Assembly (NCBI GenBank): GCA_963920705.1
Contig: OY987226.1
Span: forward strand, 17,575,100 to 17,639,099
Length of the DNA stretch: 64,000 bases
Origin: Odiellus spinosus
Lineage: Eukaryota > Arthropoda > Arachnida > Opiliones > Phalangiidae
Reading direction: 5' to 3'
The stretch's first letter is position 1; every line of letters starts with the position of its first letter. The position numbers were made by a program, and so were the translations under genes. This document shows, in pieces, positions 12,812-48,168 of the stretch. The notes beneath the pieces were generated by a model. The model was not told the origin of the DNA. It did not search any database and saw only the letters and a list, made by a program, of their open reading frames with translations.

Positions 12812-13217
12812 AGGGAAACTTGGAGCTAAAAATGTAATAGTTTTTGAATTTATTTTCAGAATCACCATGCAAGTTCTAGGCAAGTTTTGGTGTTTAAATT
12901 AATTTCTGAAGTTTGGTTAAATTTCTATAAGACTCGGGCCAGTCATATTATTTCAGCCTTCAACTGCGCTTGTAATGTCCTAACATTGAAGAATAGGCCG
13001 GCATTTGATGTTCAAGACTTTCAGCATCAAACGCCAGCCTATTCTTTCTGATTGGCCCGAATTTATACTTACATTCACATTTAAACAAACTTTTGAAATT
13101 AATTTAAACACAAAAATGGTGATTAAAAATGCTAGAAAATTCTCGAATACGTTTTTTGGCATAGTGATTAAGAAAATAAATGCAAAAGATGTTACATTTT
13201 TAGCTCCAAGTTTCCCT
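12812..13217. mobile_element. TTAA-flanked palindromic MITE (T2/Kolobok-like), AGGGAAACTTGGAGC family
   Basis: Best copy of the family. TTAA at 12808-12811 and 13218-13221; ends AGGGAAACTTGGAGC and GCTCCAAGTTTCCCT. The halves are loose inverse copies, and the centre (about 12988-13047) holds AGAATAGGCCGGCATTTGA facing its inverse. No coding capacity. It lies just downstream of HSF. Confidence 0.9.
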
Positions 13218-13716
13218 TTAACCTGATATTGGGCTTAGGGTTAAACAACAAGGAATACATTTACGAGGGTACTAGCTTTATCTCCGTCAGGAGTTCAATG
13301 CTCGTTTCGTTTACTTGTCTTTCTCCCTTACTCTTCGACAGAGGCGCCATCCGTTTTAAGCATTATAGTTCTTCAACAAATTTTAATTTTACATCCTCGT
13401 GAGACGTAACAATAAGAATAGAAATATTGGCATCTAGTTTACGCCAAAACATTGAAAGAAATTCATAAAGTAGAAATCTCAAATAAAATTGAAAAAATGC
13501 TGGATTTTTAATGAAATTGGGGTTTGTTTCCCGAACTTTTACGAGCCCTTTTAAAATTACGTTAGTCATCAATTTTTCAGGTTAACTGCGTGCTAACTCG
13601 TTAATTATATTAACGCACCCAGGCAAGTATTTATTTTGCGTGTTACAGATTCAAATAAAAAAGGTTACATTTTGAAACCCTACTCTTTCCAAGCGAATTT
13701 CAATTTCCCAAAAAAA
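13218..13716. other. Downstream flank of HSF
   Basis: Contains the likely HSF poly(A) signal (13630-13635, minus strand). Nothing else recognised; the minus-strand frame at 13363-13572 has no support. Confidence 0.35.
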
Positions 13717-16700
13717 CTAACTGGTTTTCTTCTTTTTGGCTCGAAGAGAACTTTGAGTGGCTGTTTTTTTTCTTTGAATGGTACGAGGAATTTCAAAGTT
13801 GGAGTCTTTCGGGGGATTTTGTTGTAAATTTGAAATATATTGAAGTTGAGTGGCCGCCCGATTATCAGATTGGTTTCGAACCATCAAGTTACGAAAGAGT
13901 TCTTCCTGCGAGACTCCTAATAATTCCGCGATACAATCGTTAGTCGACGTCAAATCAGAATTCTCTTCATTAGAAGTTTTTAAATCATTGGCTAAATCCT
14001 TTTCATTCGCGGCCGCCGACTCAGTTTCCATCAAATTAGGCAAATATTGAACCACTTCATTACCTAATTTAATCGTTATTAGATTAAATTAGGTTTAAAT
14101 TAAAATTTTAAAGGATTAATGAACTGATTAAAGGAGTCCTTCACGGCCGTGGCGTCCCCCCCCTGTTTTTTCAAAAGTCGGTCTTCCAAAAATTGCCCAC
14201 TGCATGTCTTTGGCGCCCCAGTAGTATATATCTATTAAGTAGTATAGAAGGGAGGGTCGCTAAAAACTGAGGGGGGAAGCAGTAGACATGAGGGAGCCGC
14301 CAAGGCAGTGAAGGACTCCTTTAAGGAAATATTGAGGTATTTACCAGTCACATCTCCTTTTGCAAATCGAAACGAATCCTGTTACGATTACGTTAAAGAT
14401 TAATTTAAAAATTAGTCTATTAATATTAGACGGAGAATGAAACCTGACAAAAGGTGGTTTTCTTTTGGTTTCTTACATTAGAATTGGCCAAATCCATAAG
14501 TTAAACATTCTACAAAACAAATATTAAGCTCGAATTCAATTTTTAAATTATTTCTAAAGTAGGCTTAACAAGAAACCATGGTGAGATTATCTTGCTGTTA
14601 ATGAGTAAACGCGCCCGTTCAATAATAAAATGTTTCAAAATATCCTTTTGCTCGTTAACAACGAGCTATCAAACTAGTCTAAATAGACACTTATTGAGAT
14701 GAACAAGGCTTGTGGAACAACAAATTGCTAGAGTCCGATGTGCTGTCAAATACAGCCAAAGTAGGGGGACGTAGGCAAGCCCCCTTAACTAGTGTGAGTC
14801 GTCCTTTGTGCGGAATCACAAAATTGCGCGCCAGGCGTTTTCATGCTGGCTTTACAAGCCTCAGATACTATTTTTCGTTTATTCAGCTGTGGTTTCCCCG
14901 TCACAAGGGCAAAAATTGAAAGCCACAAACAAATTAACCTTATATAATGACATCTTAACAAAAAGGCTGGGATCTATTTCCTTCTACTTCTATCTATTCG
15001 TGCTATTATTGCCATAGCAGACGACCCTGACATAGTTTTTGTTGTTTGTCAGATATAGTCTTTATTGGGCCTAAAAGTTCGGTAGTACCAAGAATAGATC
15101 TAAACCACACAAGAATAATAACAGCTATAGCTTTGTATTTACAATCGGGTGGAGCCAATAGCGGCCTTAAGCCCCGCCTCCTATCACGCGCACAGCAAGT
15201 GATTTTCTACAAAAAGCGCGGAACACGGTTACAAAAGTCAGCAGGTGGGGAGGAAATCTCGGACAGCGGGGGAATTCTCGGGTCTGTGATAGGGTGTAAA
15301 TCATAACGTATATTTCTTCAAAGCTAACAAGCTCCTCCCATTTGTGACTAGCGTTATACTGGAGCTATAGCAGGGTTCGTACAAAATTTTGGAAGTTAAT
15401 TTCCCTGACTTTTCCAGATTTTGCCTGACCATTTCTAAATAATTTCCCTGACCAATTTTTTCATGAATTTATTCTTACGAGCGAGCTGTTGGCAATTCCC
15501 ACATTTTATTTGACATACTTTATCAATCGGAGTCAGGATAGTTTCTCAGAATATGAGAAACAATTTGAATCTTTAGGCAAATATTTTGAGTTTATAATAA
15601 TTACGTTACAACTGATTGGTAAAACAATCATAAACAGTTCCTTGACACATACCAAGATATTTATTTTCTCTGACCACTTGGGCTATTTTCAAATTTCTTG
15701 ACTTTTCCTGACCTATTGGAGCAATTTTCAAAATCCCTGACTTTTCCCTGACCTTTCGGGCCACTTCCCAAATTCCCCGACTTTTCCCTGACCTTTAGGC
15801 CAATTTGCAAATTCCCTGACTTTTCCCTGATCTTTTGGGCCAATTTGCAAATTCCCTGCTTTTCCAGGTCATGTACGACCCCTGTATAGCGTACAGTTCA
15901 TTATTCTTGTGTGGATATAGATCTAGTCTTGGTAGTACATATTGTTTAATGAGTACAAAGCAAATAAATAAAGTCTAAAAAGTCACTGCGAGGAATCATA
16001 GACCGAGTAATCTCCCAAACAGAAGCTCCCTATGCGCATAATTCTTTTACAAGTAGGAACTGTATTTTTGTCCATTTTACCTTGAGAAGGTAGGCTTTGA
16101 GGGTCATGCTACCAGCAGAACTTTAATCTGAATATGAGCGTTACTTTAAATGTTACAATTGATTTCAAGCTTAATATTGGTTTGTTAATTTGTTATACTT
16201 AGGCCTACCACATAGAATCACTTGTTGTTGGGCTGCTGCATTCTCCCTTTAATTATATCTAAGTAATTTTATTACCGTTGGTAAATTATTTCCAGGCACC
16301 GTATCATCAGCACCAAAAAGCTGAAAATAATTTGGAGGTAATTTTTAAATGAAACGACTAAAACTAAGCAATCAAGGCGATCGAGAGTATCAAGGAATAT
16401 CTTACCCCCAACAAATTACTGGTATCGATGCTATAAGAATTGCCCGATAGTTGTTCGGACAACCAATCTAGTTCGTTATCGATTCCTTCCAAATGATCCG
16501 TAAATGACGATCTTTTATCGAGATAAATGTTATAAAACTAGAGTTAATTACACTATAATACTGGCCATTATCCAAGAGCATATTTATACAACGCGTTACA
16601 CCCAAATTGCGCAAAAATTTCGAACTAAATTGTAATAACTGCACAGCGAAGTCAATTTAAACCCAAACTCCCAAAAAATTTGGTATTAAGTGAAGTTTAT

Positions 16701-19700
16701 AGATTGTTTTGGATAAAGTAGCTAAAGAATATTCCACCACTCTTTCCTAGCTTTCCTATCATTGCAGGGCTGCTAGCCTTTCTCTCCGCTTCAACTCACA
16801 AGTAGTTGACAACACCGGGGGAAATGGAATTTACTCCCTTTAGTGAAAACTATGAATCTAATTTGGTCCTACACTAGCTGTTATAACAGCACAGTAAAGT
16901 ATATTTAAGCCCAAATAGCAAAGACCACACAGCATGGTTATTAAAGGGAGCCCAAAGGGGGTGCAAATAGAGGGGTCGACATTTTTAAAATACGTCATCA
17001 TGGGAACCAATTGTGGGGTTCAAAATAGCCGCTAGAACTATCCTGGCGCTAGGTGTTTGGGCGCGTTCCCCGATATGTAGTATTCCGCGTTTCCCCGAGT
17101 CCTCCCACTCCCTACTCCAACGTGGGCCTCGTGGCTCCACCCCGGATCCGGATGATGCCTATTTACGCCAGGGCTCTTCACGAAAAATAGTTCCCTATCA
17201 CGTGATAGTGACGTTTTTTAAAAATGTCTTCCCCCCCCCCCATATTGGTCTTTTGCACCCCCTTTGGGCTCCCTTTAAGGCCCAAATTTAATTGTTCATA
17301 AATATCGAAGATTTTTTTTTTTTGGATCTCTATAGACTAGGACTAATTTTCCCCCAAAATTGTCATTAACCTAGAAACGCACCTTAACTCTATTCGCGCC
17401 TTGTCAAACTGATTTCGAGGCTGTTTTTACTCTCCATTTCAATTTACTCCCACATAATAATAAAAAAAAAAAGATATCGCCTGTTCCAATGAGGGGAAAA
17501 AAATCTAATTCAGTCAAAAATGGTACAATTTGGAAAATTCTAACAAATTGTCGAAATAGGCAATTAAAATAACCGCAGGAATCAACAAAAGTGGACCAAC
17601 CCTTACCTAAAAAAGTTAGTCTTAAGAGGTCTTTCGGGTGTCTTATGTAGTCCTAAAGGGACTATCTGCGATTTTCAAATCCCCTTTAAAGTAGCCTTCT
17701 TTTCTAGCTTAGCAGACGACGTTGTACAAAATAAATTGTACAGTCAAAGCTAGGCTGCGTGCGTAAGGGAAGAGCATTTTAAAGGGGCAAGTTTCAGAGC
17801 AAGTGGGGCCTTTTAAAAGTCTTGCAGAAATCTTAAAGACTTCCCCAAGGGGCCAAGACTTTTGTATTGTTCTTGAAGACTTCTTCAGATCAGACTTTTT
17901 TCCGTAAGGGGACGAAATATAAAATTTTAGTTTACTTTTGTTGAATTTAGGTTATTTCTTATAGTTTATTTCGTCTTATTTCTTTGGAATTTTCAAATGA
18001 GAACCATTTATGACCAAATTAATCTTTTTTCTCATCAGAATGACCAAATTAATCTTTTTTCTCATCAGAAGGCCGATTTCTTTTGTGATTCTATGGAAGC
18101 ACATTAAATGAAAAGTAAAACCAACATCGTGCTCGCGAATGTTTTTCAATTTGTATAGATTAAATTCACAAGATCAGTTTGGAAAGGCCCGTATCCAGTA
18201 AAGTAGCGTGTCTACATTAACCAAATTAAAAAAAACCATCAACATTAATTCTTGCGATTTTCATTGACCTTTTGCCCTCTATTCGAAATTTGGATTAAAA
18301 TTACAAACATTATCTCGGAAGAGATAAAATAAAAAAATTGGGGTATCTTTTTAAGAACATTGAAAACTAATGGGGTTTGATCGTAAGAGTTTCAGGCAAT
18401 TGCGAGAAGGAAGTATGAAAAATAACATTTAGTAGTGCTGATGGTGGCGAAATTAAAAATGTATTACGGTTACCTTTCAATATCAAATCTTTTGTAACCG
18501 GGACTTAACAAGGAACTAAAATCATTCATCGAACAAAGGGAAGCAAAAAGTCAAACCCGATCATTTACATCGAGAGAAAGAGAGAAAACAAATTGGAAAA
18601 ATAAAATTAAATTGATTAGAAATTAGTTAAAGATAGTCTCGTCAAAATAAGATTTTGTATGGATACATAACAATTTTCACTTGATTTGCCCTTAAATAAA
18701 GTTACCAAGAACCGTTTACAAATTGAACCTTTTTTAAACCCATTAAAAGCCGGGAATAATCCCCATTAAAAGCCGGGAATAATCCCCATTAAAAGCCGGG
18801 AATAATCCCCATTAAAAGCCGGAAATAATCCCCATTAAAAGCCGGAAATAATCCCCATTAAAAGCCGGAAATAATCCCCATTAAAAGCCGGAAATAATCC
18901 CCATTAAAAGCCGGAAATAATCCCCATTAAAAGCCGGAAATAATCCCCATTAAAAGCCGGGAATAATCCCCATTAAAAGCCGGGAATAATCCCCATTAAA
19001 AGCCGGGAATAATCCCCATTAAAAGCCGGGAATAATCCCCATTAAAAGCCGGGAATAATCCCCATTAAAAGCCGGGAATAATCCCCATTAAAAGCCGGGA
19101 ATAATCCCCATTAAAAGCCGGGAATAATCCCCATTAAAAGCCGGGAATAATCCCCATTAAAAGCCGGGAATAATCCCCATTAAAAGCCGGGAATAATCCC
19201 CATTAAAAGCCGGGAATAATCCCCATTAAAAGCCGGGAATAATCCCCATTAAAAGCCGGGAATAATCCCCATTAAAAGCCGGGAATAATCCCCATTAAAA
19301 GCCGGGAATAATCCCCATTAAAAGCCGGGAATAATCCCCATTAAAAGCCGGGAATAATCCCCATTAAAAGCCGGGAATAATCCCCATTAAAAGCCGGGAA
19401 TAATCCCCATTAAAAGCCGGGAATAATACCATTTAAAAGCCGGGAATAATACCATTTAAAAGCCGGGAATAATCCCCACTTAAAAGCCGGGAATAATCCC
19501 CACTTAAAAGCCGGGAATAATCCCCACTTAAAAGCCGGGAATAATCCCCACTTAAAAGCCGGGAATAATCCCCACTTAAAAGCCGGGAATAATCCCCACT
19601 TAAAAGCCGGGAATAATCCCCACTTAAAAGCCGGGAATAATCCCCACTTAAAAGCCGGGAATAATCCCCACTTAAAAGCCGGGAATAATCCCCACTAAAA

Positions 19701-22700
19701 GCCGGGAATAATCCCCACTAAAAGCCGGGAATAATCCCCACTTAAAAGCCGGGAATAATCCCCACTAAAAGCCGGGAATAATCCCCACTAAAAGCCGGGA
19801 ATAATCCCCACTAAAAGCCGGGAATAATCCCCACTAAAAGCCGGGAATAATCCCCACTAAAAGCCGGGAATAATCCCCACTAAAAGCCGGGAATAATCCC
19901 CACTAAAAGCCGGGAATAATCCCCACTAAAAGCCGGGAATAATCCCCACTAAAAGCCGGGAATAATCCCCACTAAAAGCCGGGAATAATCCCCATTAAAA
20001 GCCGGGAATAATCCCCATTAAAAGCCGGGAATAATCCCCATTAAAAGCCGGGAATAATCCCCATTAAAAGCCGGGAATAATCCCCATTAAAAGCCGGGAA
20101 TAATCCCCATTAAAAGCCGGGAATAATCCCCATTAAAAGCCGGGAATAATCCCCATTAAAAGCCGGGAATAATCCCCATTAAAAGCCGGGAATAATCCCC
20201 ATTAAAAGCCGGGAATAATCCCCATTAAAAGCCGGGAATAATCCCCATTAAAAGCCGGGAATAATCCCCATTAAAAGCCGGGAATAATCCCCATTAAAAG
20301 CCGGGAATAATCCCCATTAAAAGCCGGGAATAATCCCCATTAAAAGCCGGGAATAATCCCCATTAAAAGCCGGGAATAATCCCCATTAAAAGCCGGGAAT
20401 AATCCCCATTAAAAGCCGGGAATAATCCCCATTAAAAGCCGGGAATAATCCCCATTAAAAGCCGGGAATAATCCCCATTAAAAGCCGGGAATAATCCCCA
20501 TTAAAAGCCGGGAATAATCCCCATTAAAAGCCGGGAATAATCCCCATTAAAAGCCGGGAATAATCCCCATTAAAAGCCGGGAATAATCCCCATTAAAAGC
20601 CGGGAATAATCCCCATTAAAAGCCGGGAATAATCCCCATTAAAAGCCGGGAATAATCCCCATTAAAAGCCGGGAATAATCCCCATTAAAAGCCGGGAATA
20701 ATCCCCATTAAAAGCCGGGAATAATCCCCATTAAAAGCCCGGAATAATCCCCATTAAAAGCCGGGAATAATCCCCATTAAAAGCCGGGAATAATCCCCAT
20801 TAAAAGCCGGGAATAATCCCCATTAAAAGCCGGGAATAATCCCCATTAAAAGCCGCGAATAAACCCCATTAAAAGTCGTGAATAAACCCCATTAAAAGTC
20901 GTGAATAAACCCCATTAAAAGTCGCGAATAAACCCTATTAAAAGCCGCAAATAATTACCCTCCTAACCAACTTTCAATTAAGTAATATATATACAACTTA
21001 CAAAGAAATAGGCGGTTGTTCGTTTAGAGCCACAGTCATTTGCGGGTTATTGGAGGTGGAGGGAGTGGGTGATTCGATCAAATCTGGGATTATCAAGTTG
21101 TTTTTTTCACTAACCAAGGGAACATTGGAAGGGGGATCGCTTCTAGAAGCTTGGGTTGAAGAGGGAGGCTGAGGACTGAGGACCTCTTTCCCATCATTAT
21201 TATTCGTCTCAGAATCTACCAGATCTTCTAACGTCGGATCAGCTGAGGTGGGGGAATTCAGAAACTCATTTTCCAGAACATCATTACCCGTTGGCAACAT
21301 TAGAATAGTGTTTCTGCATTCAAAACAAATTAGTTAACTTTTATAACGCAAAGTATTAAAATCTAGATGACCACATTACATATTTTCCCTTATATTCTAA
21401 CTATAAATCCTGTGATCTCCTATATTTGAACTCAAGAGATGTCAAGCAAATAGAATTTTTCAATGATTACCTATCCTCCCTTTAGATTAGTATAATCTGT
21501 AATATTTAATATTCTATAGCATTTAAGCTTTTAGTTTTTGTTACTACCACGTATGAACCAGTGATGAGACTATTTCCTACAATATTTTGAAGGCTTTACT
21601 AATTTATCGATGAAGATATTTCCCCAGTTAAGATAGTCTGTAATACTCCATAGTATTTAACCGCATAGTAATTACCAGGCATGAACCGGTGATGATACTA
21701 TTTCCTAAGACATTTTCAAAGCTTTCCTAATTGTAACATATTCCTCGCTGAAGGCTTTGAAAAAACCAACAACATCAGACATAATAAAATAAGTATATCC
21801 AATCATAGTTTGTTATTCTCCGTCTGCATAAGAGTTTTGGTGCCGTTTATTTTGTATCTACAGTAGTTGATCTAGGTTATATTGCTTCCTATTATTTAAC
21901 ATAAGATGCATTTATATTATCCTATATTTAACTGAAACATTTCCTATACTTCCTATAAAGGATTTCTAAATTTAACGTGGTCACTCTGGATTGACCTAAT
22001 CTTACGTGGGTGTTTGTAAGGGAACGAGGACGCTTAGAGGCTCCATTATTTCTTCAGTGTTTAAGGGACTGTCAACGGCAGGGCTGTTGACGATGGGTTG
22101 TTCGGGAAGAGGGCTTTCTCGAGATTGTTGTGCCTCGCAAAATTCTGGATTCAGAAGTCTTTGATTGATTGGTGAGGGCACAGATTCGGCGGCAACTCTA
22201 GATTCCAGGGAATCAGTCACATCTCTAATAACTGGTCCAGTTGAATTGTTCGAACTCTGAGCTTGGCTCTGAGACATACGTACGGATAACTTTGGTTAGG
22301 ATTCTATCTAAGATTGTCTTAATATCAGAGCCGCTACAAACATTTCACGAAGTGATTCCAGTTTGATTGAGTTTCAAACATGGACAACTTTTCAAAATTT
22401 ATCAAATCTAAATTTCCTGGACCCTTTTTAGATCAAATTTCAACCTCCTGAGCCCTCTTTAGACCACTCTCACCCTCCTTGAGACCTTGACCTTTATCTT
22501 TTTTGAAAAATTAAATCCTTGGAACCCCTTTTGAAGAGTGTAGCAACCCTGTTAAAGCAATCAACGATATACTAACAGAATATTGCCTGGTGAATCTTCC
22601 TATCTTGGGTGATTCGGAAGAGGCGGAACTATTATTCGAATTATTGACGGAACTATCATACAACATGAGAGGCAATTTCCTTTGGACAACGTTAATGTTT

Positions 22701-25808: not shown

Positions 25809-28800
25809 ATGACAATTACAAACGTTTTGAAATGGTTTGTGGTATCGATTTTCGGTATTTTGATTCGTTTGCTATGTTTCCATTCAAATTTACACGAGAT
25901 ATTCGTCAATAGAATTGAAATTTCGACGCCGGTAAATTCTTGGAAAAGAGGTTTGAATTTTAACACTTGGTTAAAGTTTTGACATTTGGATGATTTGCTC
26001 CATAATTAAGCCAGAAATTTTTATTTTAATAATGCTAATTAATTTAGTGACTGAAGGGGTTTATTTACAAAATTCCAAAATTTCTCCGTATTCTGGAGAT
26101 ACTTTCCACGAAGTTCCATTAGCGTTATGGCTTTACACGCAATTATTCAAACATATACCCACACAGTTACCCTTTTTATTTATGGTAATAACTCTCAATT
26201 AAAATTATTTTAACTATGGGTAACCATTAATTACAACAAACGTTTATATTAAGATAAGTGATCTGTTAACCGCACTACTACTAGCATGGAGTTCTAAAAT
26301 CTATTCCAATAACTTGGTAAATTAAATATTACGAATATATAATAATATATCAACTATCATTAATTAGAGTTTAATTCTTCCCAGTTAAAAGAAGAATCAA
26401 ATCTCAAAGTCCCATCATCATTCAAAGCTTTAGCTTTAAGTTCAAACAGTATCAGTGACATACCATTCTACGTATTTTGCATGTAAGTTATTACATTTTA
26501 ATTAATTTTATAATGAGATATAATTATAAATTTTAAATGAATTATTTTAAATATAGCTATCTTTTTTCGCCCTATTCAATATTTTCTTGCGTTGGACAAG
26601 CTACAACTTCTCTAACTAATTTATTCCTGGCCATAGTATTCTTATCAGTGGCTTGCAGTAAGAAATTATATAAAAAAAAAAAAATTATGAATAATTAATT
26701 ATCACTTATGTTTTTTTGCAGAAATGTGGCTTCTGGCCGCAGTTAGTCTTTCCATATTGAGTTATCATTCGATATACCCCGTCATTTTACTGATACCATT
26801 GTTAGTCGGTATAATAAATGACCCAAACTCGGGTAAATCAAAGTTTTGTCTGACTTTTATCACAATGTCAATTTCGGTGGCTTCTTTACTCTACGTATCG
26901 AAAGAATATATGGGAAATTGGGATTTCTTGATTCCCACTTACGGTTCGATGTAATATTATCGCATTTACTTTTAACGATTTTTTTGTAATTGAAAAAAAT
27001 ATTTTTGCTAATTTTAAATTACAGATTAACTGTTCCCGATTTGACTCCAAACATTGGTTTATTTTGGTATTTTTTCACCGAGATGTTTGATCAATTTAGA
27101 GTTCTTTTCCTATGGACGTTCCAAATTAACGTATTCATCTACGCGCTTCCGTTAGCAATCAGATTCAAGTAAATATTCTTTTTTTTAAAATATCTTAGAA
27201 AGGGATAATGAAATGTAAAATATCCCCAAACAAATACAGAATTAGGCTTGGAAAATTTTTGTGTTGAACTAGGCTTATCCCACTTTGGTGTTGAACTAGG
27301 CTTGGCATAGTTAATTTTGAATTAGGCTTATCACACTTTATTGTTCAACTAGCTAGCTTGGCATAATTGATTTTGAATTAGCTAGGCTTCTCCACTTTGG
27401 TGTTCAATTAATTTTAGCCTCATTTGGTTTTGAATTATGCTTATCACACTTTGATGTTGAAATAAACCCAGAAAATTGGGTGTTTAATTTAATTTAAAAG
27501 GTTAGTTCTTTTATTAGGCTTAGTACGCTTGGTGCAGAATTAGGCTTTGTCCAATTTGGTGATGAATTAGGCTTGCAAATACTGAGAACTATTTAGTTCA
27601 CCCTCTCTTTAATGCATCAGTAATAGTAACTTGGTGTTTTTTTTATATATATTCAATCAGACATGAACCAATGTTGCTACTTTACGTCCAATTGTTTTTG
27701 GTTTCAATATTTAAATCGTACCCAAGTATCGGAGACTACGCTATTCCTTTTGCATTTCTTCCAGTATGGAAACACAACTTTCCGTGTAAGATCATTTTTG
27801 TATCTTTGCCAAAAATACCATGACATATCTTTCCAAACTTTAATATTTATCTTTTCTTTTCATCCCCCAAAGTTATGAGGCAGAGTTTCTTAGTAGGTTG
27901 TATTCTAGCCATGACGTTTGTGCTGGCTCCGTTATTATGGTATCTTTGGATCTACGCTGGTAGCGCCAATTCTAATTTCTATTTTGGAATCACTCTCGCC
28001 TTTAATACGGCGCAAGTAAGTTAAAATAGCAACTATTAAATCCACTATATTTCCAGTGCCATTTTTGGCAAGGCTTAGTTCAAACTGAAAAAAAGCTGTG
28101 GTCTACGTGATGTTCCTCTTAAGATTTATTTAAATATATTTTCTACTGTAACAGTAAGGCTTAGCTGACAGAAATGGACAATTGTCCAGTAAATCCCTTA
28201 CCAAGTTATCGGACATTTTAATAGATGACATTGCCAGATTTCCTGTAATAGAAAGTACTGTTTCTTATCAGACAAATGTCCAGTGACCCCTCTCGAAAAT
28301 AAAAAGTTATGGGGCACATGTAAAATTTATCGGGCAATGGCAGTACATATTTCCATCACTGCTATCAGAAACCTAAACATCCGTCCAGTCTGTTCTGCAT
28401 TTACACTCCACCTTAGATCTGAACTTTATACTCCCTTTAAGGTACAATTTGGCCTAAATGTTTTATCCTAGTAACTTAGCGATATATTTAGACTGTTTCT
28501 TATAAAAAGAACAATCGTGAATCCTGGGCTCCCAGCGTAGAGCCAAGAAAAAATTATAGGTATTATAGGTTTTAAAAGCCTAAAATATAGGTAATTTATA
28601 TAGGTCCAAAAATATCAATTTATAGGACTTTTTATAGGTTTTTAGTTTTGAAAATTAGGGGTTTTATAGGTAGGTTTCTCTGACATGTAATGCGATATAG
28701 GTTCTATATCCTCTAGACCTGTCCCTCTGCCTTTCTTTGGCACTACTAGCTACTTGCACTCCTCTCGACAGTCTACCTAACTTCTAAAAAAATAGAGTAA

Positions 28801-29749
28801 TAATTACCAGTGACCTAGGAGAGGAAACCTTTCTGCCACAGCTTGGTTTTTTGCAATCATTTGCACTTTTTCAAGCAAAAGTATAATTTTTATAGTTCAT
28901 TCCTTTCGAATTTTATCACCGAAGTTGAACAAATTCCCCAAAAAATAGGTATTATAGGTTAAAAAGTGAAATTATAGGTTTTTATAGGATCACTTCAGAA
29001 TTATAGGTAATTATAGGTATTATAGGTGGTCTGGGAGCCCTGTCGTGAATCCCGCTAATACTTAAATAGTAGTAGGATTGTAGGCGTACTATAAGCAAAT
29101 AAGGTTTCAGTTAACGGTGATAAAAGGGGTTTGTGGTTGATGCCTTAGGTCATCAATTAGGTAATCGTGCCGCTGTGATGTAACTCATCCATGCACTTTC
29201 ATAATTTATAATTACACTTTCAAGTATATGGCGAGCGCATTACGGACAATATATTAAGATCAGTGAAAGAAATTTCCCTCCAATAAAATATAACTCAAAA
29301 CACTATTCCACAAATAGTAGAGTGTAAAGTACTCATAATAAAACAAATAAATTTTAAATAATTAAAAATTATCAAGCTTACCAAGTTGATTTGAGCTCGC
29401 AGCTTAAAAGTTCAGCACTATTTAAATCCATGTTTATTGGCAAACAATATTTTTTGTTTCATTATATGGTTCAAACGGTGATTCACATTATGAGTAATTG
29501 AGTATACCCTAGCTCTTCATCAGTTCAGATATATTCAAGCAGTTTGAATTTGCTAAGCCTTGTTAAACGGCGTGGAAGTTTTGTCCAAAATTTCTTCTTA
29601 TAACGTACTTTTTTGCTTCTTAATCTTCTCTTGCTAAGATATTTTTGGTCACTGATTTGTTGTTCGCGTATTGTAAACGTGATTATCATCTCAATAATGG
29701 AATCGAGTTGGACGAAACAGGACAACCTCAAAGACTGGATTTGAAATAG
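25809..29749 (+). CDS. PIGU: PIG-U, GPI transamidase complex subunit, 10 exons, 430 aa
   Basis: Multipass ER membrane subunit of the GPI transamidase, which attaches GPI anchors to proteins. Exons: 25809-25950, 26048-26184, 26254-26316, 26385-26482, 26557-26657, 26722-26950, 27025-27168, 27661-27785, 27873-28015, 29639-29749; the frame is open to a TAG stop. Length fits the family (human about 435 aa). Diagnostic stretches: [18 protein letters not shown] near residue 60, the conserved block [15 protein letters not shown] with FQINVF just after it, [12 protein letters not shown], and [18 protein letters not shown]. The start has a first hydrophobic segment ([14 protein letters not shown]) like the human N-terminus. 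The last intron (28016-29638) carries a 519-base transposon copy, and intron 7 carries imperfect repeats. Its 3' end converges on BOP1. Confidence 0.95.
27235..27580. repeat. Imperfect tandem repeats in PIGU intron 7
   Basis: About eight loose repeats of a 35-45-base unit, such as TGTTGAACTAGGCTT and TTTTGAATTAGGCTTATCAC with CACTTTGGTG between. Strongly diverged. No coding role is seen, and PIGU exons flank it cleanly. Confidence 0.6.
28524..29042. mobile_element. Inverted-repeat element, CAGGGCTCCCAG family, copy 2 in PIGU intron 9
   Basis: Close copy of the element at 7897-8391, with the left end mutated to CTGGGCTCCCAG. An exact nine-base direct repeat TCGTGAATC flanks it (28515-28523 and 29043-29051). 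It carries about 24 bases not present in the other copy (around 28830-28860). Non-autonomous. Confidence 0.88.
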
Positions 29750-34166: not shown

Positions 34167-37100
34167 ATGGGGAATAAAGTGGTCACATTTACCGAAGAAC
34201 AAATAGAAGATTATCAGGTTAGAAAATCTCAATTAAATGAACTTCAAAACTCCAGGTTCAAATGATGAACTTAGAGCCATATTCTAGAACTTTAAATAGT
34301 ACTTAAATTAATACTAAAAAAATCAACTACATCTAACTGAAATAATTGAATTATAGACAAGAATGGCATAATGGCCAAAGAGTAGTATTTGAAGTCAAAA
34401 CAAAAATGATATTTTTGCGTGATTTCGAGTTTAAAAAAAAATAAAAAATAAAAAAAAAAAAAAAAATTGCAGCATTTTGTTTTATAATATTTTCATATTT
34501 AGCTTTATGGAAAGTAAAATTAAAATATAATCGAGGTCTTAAATGTAATGAAATGGAATTACAATTTCTTTACATTTTACATGGGCAAATTTCAGAGCAG
34601 ATAGGACCATTAAGTTAAAGGGAAACTTTCTGAGAAAATTCTCGTATACGTTTTCTGGCATATTGATTCCGAAAATAAATTCAAAAGCTGTTCCATTTTT
34701 AGCTCCAAGTTTCCCTTAAAAACTATCTGATTGTTTGAATTCTTCAATCGAAATTGCCTTTATTTAATTACTTTTACATCATTTAATTTTCTCTGTATTG
34801 ATGGCAACAAGAGCTGTATATTACTATAGCTCTTTTAAATTAACACTGGAACAAACAAAAACTCATCAAATTGCACTAAAGCACTATGAAACATAGTAGG
34901 GGTGTTTTCAATGACCACCCGTAATTGGCATTCCCGTATTTCTCCTTCCCCGAACATCCCCTTGTTAGCTACTCGAAACTGAATAGAGAAAAATTCGCCC
35001 ACATTTAATGCGATAAATTAAATCTTAGTTTTAAAAGGTCAGAGAAATTTTCTATTCATCTAAATTTAAATATTTTATTATTATTTTTCAGGACTGTACA
35101 TTTTTTACAAAGAAAGAAATTCTACGGTACGTAAAGAATTTTTATATTTCTCGAAATATTAAAATAAATTAGAATTTGGAAATCTGCGGAGTTTCACGCC
35201 TAAAAGCCCTAAAAAGTATTATAATTTTGTAATGACAATAATAGTGACTTTAAGATCGTAATAAAGAAACTGTGATTTGAAAAATATATTTTGGAATTTC
35301 CAAACAATATAAATTTTTACATTTGGTTTTCTGGATCACCGAATCTGTTGAAAATAATTTTAAAAATTTGGGAACCGGTTCAGAAGTCAGAACTTATAAT
35401 TTTAACTCTTTCTTTCTTTAACAAAAATATACTAAATAAAAAGAATTAAAAAAAAAAATGTAGAAAGTTTCAAAAAACCGGAACCATAATATCGAATCTT
35501 TAACCTAGATTTTAAAGATTCCAGGTTACGGATAAAATATCGCGTTGAAAATAGTATTGCTTTTTTTTTTAAATCTCTCCCTTTGAGGTTTAATATTTTG
35601 TAGCATTCCGCCTCAACTATGAACATTTTGTAAACCTTTCTTGACTAGAAACCGATACACGCCGTTAATTTTAACCAGTGCTAGTTCAAGTAAACCAAAA
35701 AAGTCCCGAAACCTCACGTACTAGAAGTCAAAGATCAAAGCTTTAAAGGGATGGTGAAGTGTATAAGTTATTTTTACTACATTTCCTATAAAAACGAGTT
35801 GTATCTTGAAAATAACCTTTATAAACGTTCAGAACCTAATTTTGCGGTAGCAAAATATATTTTGAAACAAAGTTAATTGATTCAATTCTACTTTGAAGTA
35901 TCGTAGTTTGATTACGGTAGCTTATTATTTTAAACTAGTTTCATTTCCAACTATATTCTAACTATAGCAGTATACAATCTTGATAACTGTGAAAATGAAT
36001 TCGATAGATAACAGATTTTTTTTAAGCTACGGTCACATCAGCACATCTTAATCAATTTGAAACGGTAAAATCAAACCAATTTTCAAATCTAAAGGAATCG
36101 TTTTAAGCGCCACGTGTTCACGCATATCTTTATAAATCGATTTACTGTAGCTTCATCTATCGGTTGTTGAAACCGAATCGGTATGAAACTGGTTCCCGAA
36201 GCACTTTCGAGAAATCGAGTCAAATCGATTCCAGAAAAGGTTTCCCGTTCTCACGACTCTAGCGAAACGTTTTGAAACGGTTCAAATCGATTTCAACGCA
36301 GCTTTAGTAATTAAAAGGAGTACCGAGTTAGTTCTAGCCGAAGTTCAATGATGCCTGAAGTCCAAAAAGCGTGCTAGAGTTAGGGCTAAGAAACGAACCG
36401 TTGCGTGTGTTTAGCACACTATTTTTTAATTTGGTTCATATACTCGCATTAAAGTGATGCTGTCACAATTTTATTCGACAGTCTGGGTCAATTGGGGCCT
36501 TGTCAAATTGGTCTCGCGCCAATATTACGAATTTATAATTTCGAAATTGAAAACATCGATTTGGAGTGCGTGACAATCGGGGACAGCATCACTTTATATT
36601 ATAAAGCTATTTTACTCTTGCTTTCTTCGATTACAGATTATTAATTGTAAATTTTTACCACTAATTTTGAGTTAAACGAGGTATAATTGAATATTTCCCT
36701 TTAGAAACTTTTAAGAAAACAGAGCTTTGAATTTAGTGTGTGGAAATAACTTTATGTTCGTTATTTTCTTACGAAAATACAGCTGCAAAGATACGTTACA
36801 ATAGAGTTTTAACACCCACATACGTATACGTACCACATAAGGGTGGTTTTTCGCTTCCATCAGCGGACGGGTTCGAGTAAAGGATAACAAAAAAAAATAA
36901 ATAAAAAAATAAGCCTTTACCACATCCAGTGCTCACAGTCTCTTCTCCGGAAATGGGAAAATGCACCTATATGTTTCAATGACGGGTCCCTAACCCTTTC
37001 CGTTCGAGGAGGTTATAGAAAACTATCTATATGGCTTCGTAAAACGGCGTATCGAGGCCGCGCTTATGTAAACCACGTGTTTCAATTCGAGAAAAAACTC

Positions 37101-40100
37101 AAGCTGAAGGCTGATACTCTTACGTACTCGAAAGAAAGCCGACTAAAGCGATACTATGGTTAGAAAAGGGAAGCCAATTAATGGAACTCTTTTTAGGCCC
37201 TTTTAAAGGGCATATCTGCTCTAGAATCTGTCCCTTAAAATCATCTTCTCTTACGCAAACAGCCTGGTTTTAGCTGTACAATTTGTTATCGCCAACGTAG
37301 TCTGCTAAGTGAAAAAGAAGGCGAACACGGTTCCTTTTAAAGTCACCGTCTTTTCTCGCTAGCAGACGACATTGACAGTAAAAAAATGTACAGACCAAAG
37401 CCAGGATGTGTGTATAATGGGCGATGATTTTGAAGGGTCAGATTTTCGAGCAGATCAGGCCTTTATTAGACAACCCCGCTTAGAAGACCAACGCCTCTAG
37501 CCTTTCTGCTCTATTCCGCGTAGTTCGGTGGACAATCTAACTGATCTCTGACTGCGAGGGAGATGCAAGGTGGCACGCGATGGACTATGGTCATAATCAT
37601 TTTGATTTTCAATACGCTCGATGTTAGGCTTTCTTTTATTTCTTTATGGGTTTGTTTTCTGGATTTCTGAGAAATAGACGAGGAATCCACGTTTGCGCCT
37701 GTTGAAGATTCGTACTGGTCTATATGGTTTTATCCCACGGGATTCAACCACACCCTAACTCTATTAAATCAGACACTATATATGTAGGGTTATTGGGGAC
37801 GCGACTATCCAACCCAAACCATCTGCTCAGTATTAGGTCTTACAGCTTCGAGTCGGGAGTAACGACACACTTTTTTATAGAAGAATTTGGTCATGTTTTT
37901 CTTTTTTTGGGCGCGTCCATAAAGTATCGAGTGAGTTTATTGTGAATTATACTAATTTATATTATATTCGTTAAAATTTTAAAATTGGATTAGCTTCAAA
38001 CAAGCTAAAAACTGGCGAGAAAAATCCCTAAACACTTGATTAAAAAAATCTCCATGCATAAATAAAATTCCTACCACCCCCCAAAATAACTTCGCCAAAA
38101 CACTCAAACACAACATATAACCACATACTTGCATATGCTGATGACCGTGGTTCCAAGCGCTTTAGAAGTCATTTCTATTTTGTAGTACTTTAAAGGGACT
38201 ATCTGCGATTTTTAAATCCCCTTTAAAGTCGCCTCCTTAGCAGACGATGGAAGCAGCATAAGGGAAGAGTATTTTACATGGGCCAAATTTCAAAGCAGAA
38301 AGGGCCTTTAAAGGACGTTGATATGGTCAACGTCATCTGCTAAGCTATAAATGAAGACGACTTTAAAGGGATTTAAAAATCGGAGATAGTCCCTTTAAAT
38401 TCCAAACTCAGTGAAATCTGTTGTACAAATAAATCAAAAATGAGTTCCCCCTCATCATGGACGTCAAGAGATGCCTTGACCAAAAACCATGGTCTTTGTT
38501 TAATTGAAATTAAGAATATTAGGAACTCAAAAATGAATAATTTGTGAAATTATTATCTGTCGTAGGGTTCAAAAAAGGTTCCGAGAATTGGATCCAAAAA
38601 CTGTACCACAAGTTATGACCGGAGACGAAGCTCACACCGTTGTCGTGCCTTTAGAGAGAGTCGAAAAAATGCCAGAATTAAGGGTAAATAATCAGTACTT
38701 ATAATTAATTAAATTAAAAATTCAAACGACCCAGTAACTGGGCTTTAAAACTATGCCAAAGTTTCGTAAATTTAATCTATACGCTTCTGAAATAATTCAA
38801 ACAAAAGGTCGCATAGTGAATATAAACAGGAGTAAGGGAGCTTGATTATGTTACTCCTGATATAAATTATTAATGAAAGGAAGAAACGAAGTTATTATTT
38901 GGACTTTGCAATCTTATCCAACGCGTGGTCCTTCGCATTTATTTGAATCGAAAAAGGACCCCCATTTTGGTTAAGTCAAATAATGGTTACTACAAAGTTA
39001 CAAATGAAACTCCCACGCTTTCAGAGAAACCGTTCAACAAATCAAACTTTAATAAGTTTTCTCCAAATACGTAGAATTTCTGCCTTCCCACGCGTAAACC
39101 TCGACATATATCTGTGATGCACTACCGTATAACTCTATCCTGTAGCGCTTCGTAAATATCTAAAGAATGATTATATTATTAATTAATTAATTCGCTTATT
39201 ATTTTATTCGCAGGAAAACCCATTCAGAAAACGTATTTGTCAAGTTTTCTCGCACGACGGAAGCGGAAATATGACTTTCGACGATTTCCTCGATATGTTT
39301 TCCGTTTTTAGCGAGCAAGCACCCAGGGATATTAAAGTCGTCTACGCTTTTCGAATATACGGTATGTTAGAGGTTAGACCTAAAGCCCCGTTTTCAATCA
39401 AGTTTTTCAAGCTTAACCGCTTCCGCTTTTAAAAGATAAGCTCATACCAAATTCATTCTGATTTGGTTAGTCACTTGAAGCTTGACAACGTGGATTAAAA
39501 GGAGAATTTAACCTAACAACAAGGGTTTTTTATCGATTCCTTATCGTTTAAATAGGCCTAATCTAACAGTAAAAAAATAAATATTAAACTAGATATAAAT
39601 TTACCCTTAAAATAGGCTTAGCTGGATTCATGAAGATATCCTGAACTCTCCGTATAAGGTTTAGCAACCAATGATATTGTTCGATGGCTCTTACATGGGG
39701 AATGCAGGATCTCCATGATCATGTTCGCTAGTCTTTATACGGGTAGTTCAGGATATATCCATGAATCCTGCTAAGCCTATTTTGATGGTAAGTTTTAAAT
39801 TTATTTCTAGTTTAATACTCGTTTGTAATTTTTTTACTGTTGGATTAGGACTTGTTGTTAAGTTGCTTTCTCTCTTTAAACGAAAAGTTTTATTTAAGCT
39901 TCAACTTTGATTTGACGCAAAAGCTCGATTCTTGGCCAACAAAAATCTAATTGAAAACGTCCCTTTAGGAGTATAGCAATAAACGCAAAATTTAATTTCG
40001 AGACGAAATCTAACATTTACAATCTATTTTAAATTAGATTTCGACGGAGATCAGTTTATCGGAACGAACGACATAGAACAAGCCGTGATTGGATTAGCGG

Positions 40101-41106
40101 GTACCGAATTAACCCCCGAGGAAATCAAATTGGTCGCTGAAAAAGTTTTAGACGAAGCCGACGTCGATGACGATGGCAAATTGTCTTTCATGGAGTTTGA
40201 ACACGCCATCTCCAGAGCACCCGATTTCTTGGGGTAAATTTCGACGTTCATTTTATTATTATTATTTTTTTTATAATTTGCGTCTTCTTAAAACTTTACG
40301 GGTAATATCATTACGCGATAAAAGCACTGACGTACACGTTATGAATAAATAAAATGTAAATTAAAGGGCAGGTTTGATTAGCGAAAATTAAAAAAAACTC
40401 CATCGAAAATACAAAAGCCCCTGAATGGGATCTTCTCATTATACTTATACGCTCCAAGGCTAAAACACTTTTACAGGCGTCAGGTAGTAAATACATTAGA
40501 GCCTCAGCCCCTGTATCGGTACTTCATTCCTAGTCCTAAAGCGCGCCAGGCAAAACATCTAAGAAAGCAGTAGGTTCTAATTACTCTTAAAGTGAGAATG
40601 CAGCCTAACAATAAGTGTTTTTTATCGATTCCTTATCGTTTAAATAGGCCTAATCCACCAGTAAAAAAATTACAAACGAAAATTTAACTATAAATAAATT
40701 TCAAACTTACCCGGAAATAAGCTACCAATCGAATGTTATTGGAAGTTTCATGGAGATTTCGACTTAACAACGGGCCTTTGCTCATTGGTCGCTGACTCAT
40801 CAATGCGAAGAAATTCAGGATCGCCATGAATCCAGCTAAGCCTATTTTCTAAGCCTACTTGAAAAAACTTGAAATCCACTTAACTTTGAAAACCAAATTG
40901 ACTTTAGGCGTTTACAAAAAAGAGGTGGAAATATTTTATCACCTTTCCCTTGTTTTAATTTGTCGGTAAGTTAGGCAACAAGGCTTATATCCCTTTTATA
41001 TTTATATATTAATTCCTGATAGTAAGAAATAGATTCAAAGACAGGTAAAAAAATTAAAAAAGTTTTTTTTCATTTTCTTTTCAGGTCTTTTCATATCAGA
41101 ATATAA
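34167..41106 (+). CDS. Calcium- and integrin-binding protein, CIB2/CIB3 type, 6 exons, 189 aa
   Basis: Small EF-hand protein that binds Ca2+/Mg2+ and partner tails; vertebrate CIB2 and CIB3 bind TMC channel subunits and integrins. Exons: 34167-34217, 35092-35126, 38566-38683, 39214-39361, 40038-40233, 41085-41106. The N-terminus MGNK matches CIB2/CIB3 exactly and presents Gly2 for possible myristoylation. Next come [29 protein letters not shown] and [22 protein letters not shown]-hand 3 is [12 protein letters not shown] (residues 118-129), with Asp rather than Glu at loop position 12, as in other CIBs. EF-hand 4 is [12 protein letters not shown] (159-170). The ending APDFLGSFHIRI is almost the vertebrate CIB2/3 ending; its last exon codes only seven residues. 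EF-hands 1 and 2 lack a full set of ligands, as usual. Orthology to CIB2 versus CIB3 cannot be decided here. Confidence 0.95.
34619..34716. mobile_element. Short GGAAACTTGGAG-family fragment in CIB intron 1
   Basis: Follows TTAA (34615-34618) with AGGGAAACTT and ends AGCTCCAAGTTTCCCT then TAAA (one T lost). Only the right-hand part of the family remains, including TTTCTGGCATATTGATTCC. The preceding 40 bases resemble the right end of the AGGGACTATC family. Confidence 0.65.
37193..37465. mobile_element. Degenerate AGGG-family repeat in CIB intron 2
   Basis: Shares CTAGCAGACGACATTGACAG and the surrounding TTTTAAAGTCACC/GCAGATCAGGCC words with the elements at 17653-17818 and 38194-38394. Ends are not sharp. 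Confidence 0.5.
38194..38394. mobile_element. TTAA-flanked foldback MITE, AGGGACTATCTGCG family, CIB intron 2
   Basis: TTAA at 38190-38193 and 38395-38398. The left arm AGGGACTATCTGCGATTTTT returns inverted at the right end with one mismatch, and the inverse match continues through the CAGACGA/TCATCTG region. An internal TTTAAAGG at about 38319 marks where a single unit would end, so this looks like a unit plus an inverted partial copy. Confidence 0.8.
39499..39875. mobile_element. Long-arm TTAA foldback element in CIB intron 4
   Basis: TTAA at 39495-39498 and 39876-39879. Nearly the whole element is two inverse arms: AACCTAACAACAAG, CCTAATC, CAGTAAAAAAAT, AATAGGCTTAGC and GGATTCATG on the left return as inverse sequence on the right (CATGAATCC, GCTAAGCCTATT, ATTTTTTTACTG, GGATTAGG, CTTGTTGTTAAG). 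The end is a variant of AGGGAGAATGCAGC. No open frame. Confidence 0.85.
40591..40865. mobile_element. Partial copy of the AGGGAGAATGCAGC family in CIB intron 5
   Basis: Follows TTAA (40587-40590) with AGTGAGAATGCAGCCTAACA, then shares TTTTATCGATTCCTTATCG and the CAGTAAAAAAATTAC block with the element at 39.5 kb. The right terminus is missing after CAGCTAAGCCTATTT. Confidence 0.7.
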
Positions 41107-42154: not shown

Positions 42155-42691
42155 TAATAAAAATTATTATTTCATCTTCTCGTTTGTAAACTTATTCAAA
42201 TCGAGTCTATTTTTTTTTAATTTAATATTTCAAATTTTTCCTTTTTCATTTAAGCTAAAATTCTATTGATATTTTTGCCATAAACTTAAATATTTAATTG
42301 GATTGAGTAATTAAAGCTCCAAATTAAAAAAAAATATTTATAAAGGTGAATTAGGAGACAATTTTATGTACAATACTTTGATTCTGTTCAAATCTAGGAA
42401 ATATAAATACGTATTTTAGTATAATTTAATTAAAATTAATGATCAAAATTATTCTTAAGATATTTATTTTGAACAATAAATTTTAAAGATATTTACATAA
42501 TTTTAGTTATTTTTAAAAACCGAAAAGCTCGCGCTTGCTTCGTATTACCGTAATTTTTACAATTGAGTATTAAACGTGTTTAGAAAAACACGTGTATCTT
42601 TCTCTAAAATATTTAAACGTAATAAATTTATTGTTTACTTTAAATTTTAATACTTTAACCAAAAAAAAATTTATGTTTTTGGAGTAGTTTC

Positions 42692-42732
<41 letters not shown>

Positions 42733-43925
42733 ATAGAAGCTTGGAAGCACCATTTACTAATTATAATTATATTTAATCTAATTTCAAATTAAACTTAAAT
42801 ATCTATTGCACAACTCCTTTTTCAAAAATGTGAAATAAAATTTAAATGACTAAATTTACAAAATATCAGGTCGCAAGTCAAGGGTATTTGACTTAATTAT
42901 TTATGAGCAATTAAAAGTCTTAATAAATCTCGATTAAAATATAGGAGAACTATAGTTACTATAATTAGTGTCGTTAATTACTAATTATCGTAATCATAAT
43001 ATATGCTTTATATATATATACAAACTAAAAATTGAGATTATTTCCAAAATAAACTTAAAATGTCACTGATGGGTTTAAAGTTGCCTAAGGCAATTTACGA
43101 ACATGCAACTTTTTAATACGGATAGCTATTATAGGAATATTTGTTATTTAAACCTAAATACTGTAATTTGGATAATACTAATAATGTTTCATTAAAAACT
43201 TTACGATTTAATAAACTATCATAATATATCTCAATAAAAATGACAACTATATCTGGCCATATCATGTCTACTAAACAAATTAGATAATTAATTTACCATG
43301 AATTTCCATGAAATATTTTATAATATAAAAAGTCAGAAATTAGCTTGAAGCAAAAATATTTTCCTAGAATTTCCATGAAAGTTAATATATCATGATAAAA
43401 ATCGTATTTTTCATGAAAATTGATATACCGTCATGGAATTTTCATTAAAAATCAACACCATGATAAAATCATACATTTCTATGAAAAATTAATACCATAA
43501 TAAAATCACACATTTTCCATGATCAATTATATATCATGTTAAAATCATACATGTTGCATGATAAAGTTCTACATGATAAAATCATGAATTTTAATTAAAA
43601 ATAATATACCATGATAAAACATGAATTTTTTATTAAAAATTATATAACATGATAAAATCATGAATTTTCCATGAAAATTATAAATCATGTTAAAATCATA
43701 CATTTTGCATGATATTATAAACCATGAAAAAGTCATACACTTTCCATTAAAAACTATATACCATGATAAAATCATGAATTTTTAACCGTTTTAGTTAAAA
43801 CATAAGGTACCATGATAAAACATGAATTTTTCATTAAAAATTAAATAACATAATAAAATCATGAATTTTTCATTAAAATATAATATACCATGATAAAATC
43901 AAGAATTTTCCATGAAAATTATTCG
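42155..43925. repeat. Duplicated block, copy A
   Basis: Matches 48652-50400 in the same orientation with only scattered differences (for example the shared ATTATTTCATCTTCTCGTTT start and AAGCTTGGAAGCACCATTTA). Copy A has a long A-run at about 42692-42731 where copy B has about ten. Ends in an array of CATGATAAAATCATG-type units (43375-43925). No gene seen. Confidence 0.85.
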
Positions 43926-44451: not shown

Positions 44452-44455
44452 AAGT

Positions 44456-45050
44456 CTAGGTATTTTTAATATGGGATATATCTATAAAAATATATGGACA
44501 ACAATAAAAATCACGAATGGCGTACAGTTTCATATGGGGGATAAGCAATATACGTTTCATTGAAAAATTAGACCTATTTAAAAGTTGTTTTTCAACTATA
44601 TCTTGATGTAAGAAAAGATAATCTTCAATATCAGGAAATGAACGTAATTTTCTAACATTAGGGCCTGAGGTATAATAGTACACATCTCCTATACGAGAAA
44701 CTTGAGATCTAAGGAATACCACTTCCCTATGCCAACCATAAGAAAAAGGTTTTAACAAAGGACTATCAATTTCTCCCATATCTGTAGCTACAACAGGGTC
44801 AGTATTAACTATATACAAGGGGTTGTTGATCAACTACTGGATTTGAAACAACCGGTATCTCCTCTATAAGGGGATTCGAAAATCTGACTCTTGACCTTAA
44901 ATTATACCGGGGAGGTTCCTCATTCTCACTTCCACTAGAAGGTTCCTCGATAATTATAGAGCTACCTATTTGATTAAAATTTCTTTGATTCACTTCAGTT
45001 TCGGGCGAGGGGTCAAACACTCGCGAACTCGGGTGTACAAAATGTTTCAA
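44456..45050 (-). pseudogene. Methyl-CpG-binding-domain reading frame with a frame break
   Basis: Two overlapping minus-strand frames read as one protein interrupted by a one-base shift near 44805-44833. The upstream part has PPRYNLRSRVRF and many Ser/Glu. The downstream part reads PFSYGWHREVVFLRSQ, then GDVYYYTSGPNVRKLRSF and IEDYLF, the standard order of an MBD fold (GW-REV-R, DVYYY, KLRS, YL), followed by NFSMKRILL. MBD proteins read methylated CpG or tether chromatin complexes. I see no clear splice pair that repairs the frame, so a decayed copy, a missed short intron or a sequencing error are all possible. The N-terminal and C-terminal limits are uncertain. Confidence 0.45.
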
Positions 45051-47472: not shown

Positions 47473-47846
47473 TTCCGTAAGAAGTCTGAGCAGAAGCCGA
47501 TGAAACCCTCCTTTGAAGTCTATTACTCCCGGGTCTTGTCTACCCCTCTCTGTATGGGTTAGTTTCAAAAAGCGCGATTGGTACGCCTCCTAACGGTAGA
47601 TATTTTCGGAGCGGGAGTTCGTCGAGCGAATATCTCTAGCAGCCTTGGAGTTCGTCAAAAAAACGTCGTCGTTTGTGGAGAGAGAAAATTTCCAATTTTC
47701 CGTAGACAGGGGGGTATGAAGTACGACCCCTCCGATCTCGTAAAATTGGGAATTTTACCCATACAGAGAGGCGCGCTATATGGAACATTAGAGTAGTAGA
47801 CTTCAAAGGAGGGTTTCATCGGCTTCTGGTCTGAGGTATTACGGAA
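47473..47846. mobile_element. Foldback element with arms of about 50 bases
   Basis: Left arm TTCCGTAA...CAGAAGCCGATGAAACCCTC (47473-47523) returns inverted at 47796-47846; 32 bases are perfect. The interior open frame has no known homology. No target duplication identified. Confidence 0.8.
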
Positions 47847-47928
47847 GCCAATTACGAGCGCGATATGATTACACCCAGGACAGCGTATATATAACTCAAC
47901 ATAGCTTCCCCCAAGCTACGACCCCTTA

Positions 47929-48168
47929 AATAGGCCTAATACACCAGTAAAAAAAATTACAAACGAATATTTAAATAGAAATAAATTTCAAACTTACCCG
48001 AAAAATAGGCTTAGCTGTGAATTTCTTCGCATTGATGGGTCAGCGACCAATAAAATGCTATTGGATGTCTCATGGAGATTTCGCCTTAACAACGGGCCTT
48101 TGCTCATTGGTCTCTGACCCATCAATACAAATCTCCATGAATCCAGCTAAGCCTACTTTTTAGGCGGT
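47929..48168. mobile_element. Partial copy of the AGGGAGAATGCAGC family
   Basis: Shares the CAGTAAAAAAAATTACAAACG, ATAGGCTTAGC and GGGCCTTTGCTCATTGGTC blocks with the copy at 40.6 kb, and ends in the inverse CAGCTAAGCCTACTT. Both termini are worn. Confidence 0.65.

Follow-up and report, generated by a model that had tools for sequence, protein, structure and literature searches.

Transposons of the Kolobok superfamily produce TTAA duplications and have termini of the RR..YY form, unlike piggyBac (PMC9587614), and their transposases are described as carrying a THAP domain, an H2CH motif, a DDE catalytic domain and a C/DxxH motif (PMC6004289, PMC9587614). The T2 miniature inverted-repeat transposable elements (MITEs) of Xenopus combine TTAA with a terminal AGGRR (PMC6004289), and the Xenopus A5 ends begin AGGGGAACTATCATGA (Table 5 of the same paper); in insects, the iMITEdb database lists Kolobok among 16 MITE superfamilies in 98 genomes, with an average of about 386 bp (PMC5199201). 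The present analysis concerns five short elements, E1 to E5, located in a 64-kb stretch of DNA (the window) within the 443-Mb assembly of Odiellus spinosus. The elements are very probably miniature, non-autonomous cut-and-paste transposons of the Kolobok superfamily, of the T2-MITE kind, moved by a THAP-type transposase from full-length elements elsewhere in the genome. Their families add to a known class, insect Kolobok MITEs being already catalogued (PMC5199201); what sets them apart is the youth of two of them, E2 and E3. The five intervals, TTAA included, are as follows.

E1, 12808..13221, plus strand: 406-bp element at 12812-13217, flanked by TTAA (12808-12811 and 13218-13221); ends AGGGAAACTTGGAGC; inverted arms of 63 bp, counting TTAA.
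E2, 14128..14324, plus strand: 189-bp element at 14132-14320, TTAA on both sides; ends AGGAGTCCTTCAC; very young family.
E3, 16941..17278, plus strand: 330-bp element at 16945-17274, TTAA on both sides; ends AGGGAGCCCAAAGGGGGTGCAAA; very young family.
E4, 38190..38398, plus strand: 201-bp element at 38194-38394, TTAA on both sides; ends AGGGACTATCTGCGATTTTT; older, diverged family.
E5, 39495..39879, plus strand: degenerate copy at 39499-39875; better copies of the family end TTAA-AGGGAGAATGCAACC; right end atypical.

None of the five has coding capacity, and in the window letters, read with their flanks, TTAA lies immediately outside each end of all five. A scan for TTAA pairs 60-3000 bp apart, with the first 15 bases inverted and at most three mismatches, was passed by 12 window pairs. 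Four of them, which have AGG at both starts (12808-13221, 14128-14324, 16941-17278 and 38190-38398, with 0, 1, 0 and 1 mismatches in the first 15 bases, respectively), agree to the base with the first four elements of a preliminary description of this DNA. As a random control, 40 order-1 and 40 order-3 Markov windows were scanned, and the maximum of AGG-AGG pairs per window was 0; TTAAAGG alone occurs 20 times in the 64 kb. The inverted arms of E2, E3 and E4 are 39, 27 and 38 bp long. The termini of E1-E4 are AG..CT, thus fitting the Kolobok rule of 5′-RR and YY-3′, and the terminal AGGRR of T2-MITEs is found in E1, E3 and E4 (AGGGA) and in E2 (AGGAG). The window copy of E5 escaped the scan, its ends being AAGGAG and AGAGAG with a 79% match over 29 bp; its AAGGA does not fit AGGRR, while better copies of the family do. 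The preliminary description had proposed five TTAA-flanked elements with different interiors, beginning A(A/G)GG or AGGA. This holds exactly for E1-E4, whose ends are AGGG or AGGA and whose interiors give no mutual match at E < 0.01; the AAGG start, however, stems only from the degenerate E5 copy, the right end assigned to E5 is reached by 3 of 40 scored genome copies (window copy included), and E5 does bear some relation to other Kolobok material of the genome, as the comparison with a longer element, given below, indicates.

Copies of each element were scored across the assembly. For E1, 40 of 3,929 candidates were scored: 13 of them (window copy included) run exactly from position 1 to 414, and the rest, at 69-82% identity, are incomplete or lack a few bases. 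The ends of this family were tallied over 46 cases, taking only ends at most three substitutions from the anchor and dropping repeated identical ones; the TTAA positions are 87-98% conserved against 33-46% at six flank positions, so that the border is sharp, and TTAA is in register at 36 of the 46 recognised ends and at four more with a shift. All 40 scored E2 copies (76 candidates) run from 1 to 197, nine of them at 100%. Sixteen copies were read with 120-bp flanks; together with the window copy, TTAA is present on both sides in 17/17, nine are letter-identical (the window copy among them), and the flanks are unrelated (mean identity 27%). Likewise, all 40 scored E3 copies (90 candidates) run from 1 to 338 at 99-100%, three of them (window copy included) at the top score, and the E3 end has 87 forward matches genome-wide against 0 in the reversed control; among the matches listed, at least those at C1:15777929, C1:17422309 and C2:5378931 are unpaired, with no second end some 338 bp off. 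Since their copies are near-identical from end to end, the E2 and E3 families are both very young.

The remaining two families show lower identities. Forty of 2,187 E4 candidates were scored and three run from 1 to 209 (the window copy and two others, at 75% and 70%); the other scored copies are partial, most of them stopping at query position 209 or starting at 1. Forty of 6,967 E5 candidates were scored, and those besides the window copy are 81-85% identical to it; the left end is a family boundary, whereas 37 of the 40 cease to match at 341-362 of 385. In four E5-family copies that were read, four of the eight ends are exactly TTAA-AGGGAGAATGCAACC and the other four a few substitutions off, TTAA is intact in seven of eight, and the ends start with AG in six cases, with AT in one and with AG after a decayed TTGA in one. 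Boundaries unshared among genome copies, which the preliminary description had named as evidence against its proposal, were not what was found: the E1 border is sharp, and E2 and E3 copies match end to end. A TTAA inverted-repeat scan of 351 kb of fetched loci gave 64 pairs, 32 of them starting AG, against 0, 0, 0, 0 and 1 in shuffles; the sample is biased, many stretches having been fetched as E1 or E2 copies. A first genome-wide end pattern was discarded as too loose for counting elements, its reversed control scoring far higher.

Long elements with the same end code are present in the assembly. A THAP profile search gave 638 candidates, 150 of which were scored; among the first three loci read, one was a P element and two were of Kolobok type. 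Element A (on contig C2) is 6,065 bp long, with TTAA on both sides and 576-bp perfect inverted repeats starting AGGGATAATG / AGGGATAATGAAAGGGCG; its gene is seemingly split into exons, and its THAP score and 186-aa frame are common to 17 copies. Element B (on contig C7) is 4,595 bp long, with TTAA on both sides and ends AGGGTTACCGACAG, and its THAP score and 160-aa frame are common to 11 copies. The THAP domain E-values are 8.8e-17 for A, 8.6e-16 for B and 3.3e-11 for L118, a homologue with a single 793-aa frame. Pfam DDE models gave no match in the exons of A and B; these exons contain the motifs GDGRADSPG / ADGRCDSPG, VTDKH / VTDRH and DNWH / DVWH, plus the H-H-C-H of the H2CH zinc motif, also present in L118, and are collinear with that homologue. 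By motif and alignment, L118 has a putative D..D..E triad (D440, D508, E656; DVWH at 529) that is collinear in the A and B exons; it also gives sub-threshold matches to the ISL3, MULE and Mutator transposase models over the second D and DxxH. The DGRxDSPG shared by A, B and L118 is what we take to be a Kolobok signature. The search for a THAP plus DDE transposase suggested in the preliminary description yielded two long elements with TTAA-AGGG ends.

Several Kolobok lineages coexist in the assembly. Elements A and B are 31% identical in one exon and have only AGGG in common at their ends, and a search with the element B exon gave 65 matches in 79 candidates, namely 11 of B, 17 of A (with one score) and 37 others at 26-80% identity; ten element B copies are identical over one exon at the protein level. 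One of the other matches (C2:25661010-25661363) shares a 585-aa frame with a PF20700 match that it overlaps, which ties the THAP-Kolobok exon group and the PF20700 group together. L118 and PF20700 proteins aligned poorly over their full length, and that alignment was not used. The P-type element among the loci read, L069 (C1:7167000-7171500), has an 800-aa frame and 31-bp inverted repeats starting CGGTGCCTCCGAGATCC; three THAP matches carry an 801-aa frame of this type. It is the only P-type element read, and it was rejected as a parent because its ends are unlike those of E1-E5.

A parent-MITE pair was also found. Four MITEs of a family outside the window, encountered by chance within other loci (L007, L019, L021 and L022), have ends AGGGAGAATGAAAGGC or AGGAAGAATGAAAGGC and TTAA on both sides in 4/4; they carry the ends of element A from the first base, with another middle, at 72-89% over 127-247 columns at seven of eight ends, and the right end of the L022 MITE leaves the element A sequence after about 20 bases. 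The ends of the E5 family appear to be related to those of element A as well: when two well-preserved ends were chosen from the eight read, L115 scored 22 against a shuffle 99th percentile of 11 (0/500) and L112 scored 15 against 10 (0/500), while the window copy scored 12 against 9 (2/500). The assignment to Kolobok and T2, as made in the preliminary description, is therefore retained, because elements with THAP and DDE motifs have TTAA-AGGG ends, MITEs share the ends of element A, and a single piggyBac fragment was found in the assembly.

As for the chemistry of transposition, and for which transposase drives which window family, we infer the following. A THAP-type Kolobok transposase would be supplied by a full-length element elsewhere in the genome, would recognise the terminal AGGR together with subterminal repeats, and would then excise the element and insert it at TTAA, so that TTAA ends up on both sides. 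Unrelated interiors could coexist because only the ends would matter and because the genome houses several Kolobok lineages, each of which would likely drive the families whose subterminal sequence fits it. The insertion sites are compatible with integration at TTAA that leaves this tetranucleotide on both sides. E2 copy L107 sits inside a frame that looks by eye like a reverse transcriptase (YADD), and when its flanks are joined the frame continues through with a single TTAA, its own stop lying further on; insert-free relatives have the 4-bp site once both for L108, compared with L018 and its tandem units (no gap there in 9 of 11 rows), and for L102, compared with L067. For 20 insertions with flanks joined, before the later E2 set, no uninterrupted match across the junction was seen in the sequences compared.

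Several observations weigh against this reading. TTAA is out of register in 10 of the 46 E1-family ends, six of them even with a shift allowed; the insert-free relatives of L108 and L102 read TTGG and TAAG at the site instead of TTAA; and the comparisons for L105, L109 and L108 versus the window are gapped at the site, those for L105 and L109 not being used. TTAA, being palindromic, is by itself equally compatible with a 2-bp TA duplication at a TTAA-preferring site. E1-E4 have nothing in common with elements A and B beyond AGG(R), the upstream kilobase of 20 further THAP loci (left sides only) contained no E1, E2 or E3 ends, and among the elements read no parent has subterminal sequence matching E1-E4; PF20700 genes, in turn, gave no convincing ends at 30 loci or around L049. 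E4-family sequence adjoining the locus L089 belongs to a neighbouring MITE. TTAAAG found upstream of 12 of 20 THAP exons was not used, as left sides only were covered and TTAAAGG is common in the window.

The preliminary description held that one Kolobok-like transposase mobilises all five families. The common TTAA and AGGR end code, the resemblance of both the E5 family and another MITE family to the ends of element A, and the element A THAP exon, present in 17 copies with one score, are in keeping with this model; however, 28 of the 65 exon matches are A or B and 37 belong to other lineages; the ends of A and B agree in AGGG alone, just like those of E1-E4; and 4.7 kb separate an unpaired E2 end (C8:12110237) from an exon of another transposase. 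A single transposase is thus less likely than several lineages; that part of the proposal is not supported, and we regard it as improbable. A further possibility is that the mobilising enzymes belong to the KolobokE-like PF20700/YqaJ group and not to the THAP type. The PF20700 group has 74 matches (70 candidates), some in long open frames; yet 28 of 30 loci lack a TTAA inverted repeat at a score of at least 11 within 1.5 kb, the two weak repeats found (scores 14 and 13) do not start AG, and around L049 TTAA pairs reach a score of 35 but lie within repeated DNA and start CTTTTTGATATT. As matching ends belong to the THAP type, this explanation is rather more improbable still.

Two other transposases would also use the TTAA site. 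A piggyBac transposase shares the TTAA target and could move mini-elements of this kind; however, the corresponding DDE model gave one candidate and one match in the whole assembly, a fragment with a 183-aa frame covering PF13843 positions 2-129, the RR..YY termini are the Kolobok form (PMC9587614), and the proteins of two elements with this end code are of Kolobok type. The single piggyBac fragment and the RR..YY termini argue strongly against this explanation, which is the least credible of those considered, and piggyBac parents, a finding that the preliminary description had set against its own view, did not emerge from 443 Mb. A mariner-like transposase preferring TTAA would duplicate TA, the element then starting AAGGR; TTAA is palindromic around TA, so filled and empty sites look alike either way. 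Nonetheless, the transposases of the long elements sharing these ends are THAP-Kolobok ones, and in the E1 family conservation is similar at each of the four TTAA positions, so that this explanation is scarcely more credible than piggyBac. Mobilisation by THAP-type Kolobok transposases thus remains by far the preferred interpretation. Elements inserted at TTAA risk being mislabelled as piggyBac; in this genome, the proteins of the parents, the end code and the lone piggyBac fragment all point to Kolobok.

A possible source of the E2 family is located on contig C8. The exact E2 end occurs genome-wide 63 times forward and 59 times reverse, with 0 in the reversed control; among 100 of these 122 places there are 47 pairs and six unpaired ends, and 46 of the 47 pairs are 197-270 bp apart. 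The E2 ends C8:12072425(+) and C8:12077512(-) are 5,088 bp apart and delimit a candidate element, which is the best lead for an E2 parent; it gave no match in the element B exon search of the assembly. At the unpaired end C8:12110237, the transposase-exon match lies inward (E 2.2e-7, 34% identity); a simulation gave a chance of about 0.005 for seven unpaired or long ends and a distance of 5 kb, both numbers having been chosen after seeing the match. It may tentatively be proposed that the Kolobok system is still moving, with E2 and E3 mobilised now by intact THAP-Kolobok elements and E2 deriving from C8:12072425-12077512 or from a copy at C8:12110237, although we incline somewhat to doubt it; if true, this would be a live natural transposase-MITE pair of the Kolobok superfamily. 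Near-identical E2 and E3 copies together with multi-copy Kolobok elements make this genome a good place to seek an active Kolobok transposase, and the system is suited to testing how little shared end sequence a transposase needs for unrelated passengers.

The window contains further copies of the E1, E4 and E5 families, listed here without strand.

208..638: E1-family copy with decayed ends.
4080..4361: partial E1-family copy whose right end, at 4361, is CCCTTTAA.
34615..34720: short E1-family copy, left end TTAAAGGGAAAC, right end CCCTTAAAA.
17654..17816: E4-family copy, left TTAA decayed to CTAA.
7482..7573: E4-family fragment.
37203..37464: E4-related element with TTAAAGGGCATATCTGC at its left end.
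40587..40854: E5-family copy, left end TTAAAGTGAGAATGCAGCC.
47926..48165: E5-family copy with missing ends.
14426..14573: E5-family fragment.

At 12014-12042, TTAA is followed by GGGAGAATGCAAGCG, like an E5-family end; the element A end, sought in the window, gave one weak match at 12017, with 7 mismatches in 26. E5 itself sits about 150 bp before an EF-hand-like exon, read by eye only (40031-40237, plus strand). Host genes include BOP1 with WD40 (30892-32397, minus strand), and a methyl-CpG-binding domain (44456-44833, minus strand) and coatomer epsilon (59815-60291, minus strand) were also recognised. Other repeats comprise a 1.7-kb pair, 84% identical and rich in CATGATAAAATCAT units (42156-43782 and 48654-50336), a second pair at 88% identity that has AATTATAGGT units close to one of its ends (7899-8392 and 28526-29043), an inverted-repeat element that lacks TTAA and has arms of 56 bp (89%) (47473-47846), and tandem arrays at 10242-11834, 18739-20955 and 54414-55820, with units of 19-20, 23 and 30 bp.

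Among known systems, piggyBac MITEs share the TTAA target and differ in termini and transposase, and the insect Kolobok MITEs of iMITEdb correspond to the window families at the superfamily level. In the three PF20700 loci scanned (L039, L048 and L049), the "Mutator" frames continue into a YqaJ nuclease domain, a layout that fits the description of KolobokE (PMC9587614). Elements A and B resemble XKol of Xenopus (PMC6004289) in THAP, DGRxDSPG, DxWH, H-H-C-H, TTAA and AGGG ends, while element A differs from it in its long perfect inverted repeats and seemingly exon-split gene. The closest likeness of the window elements, judged by description, is to the Xenopus T2-MITEs (PMC6004289), with TTAA on both sides, terminal AGGRR, several subfamilies and Kolobok transposases in the same genome; the difference is that two of the families described here are nearly without divergence, in a genome of 443 Mb.

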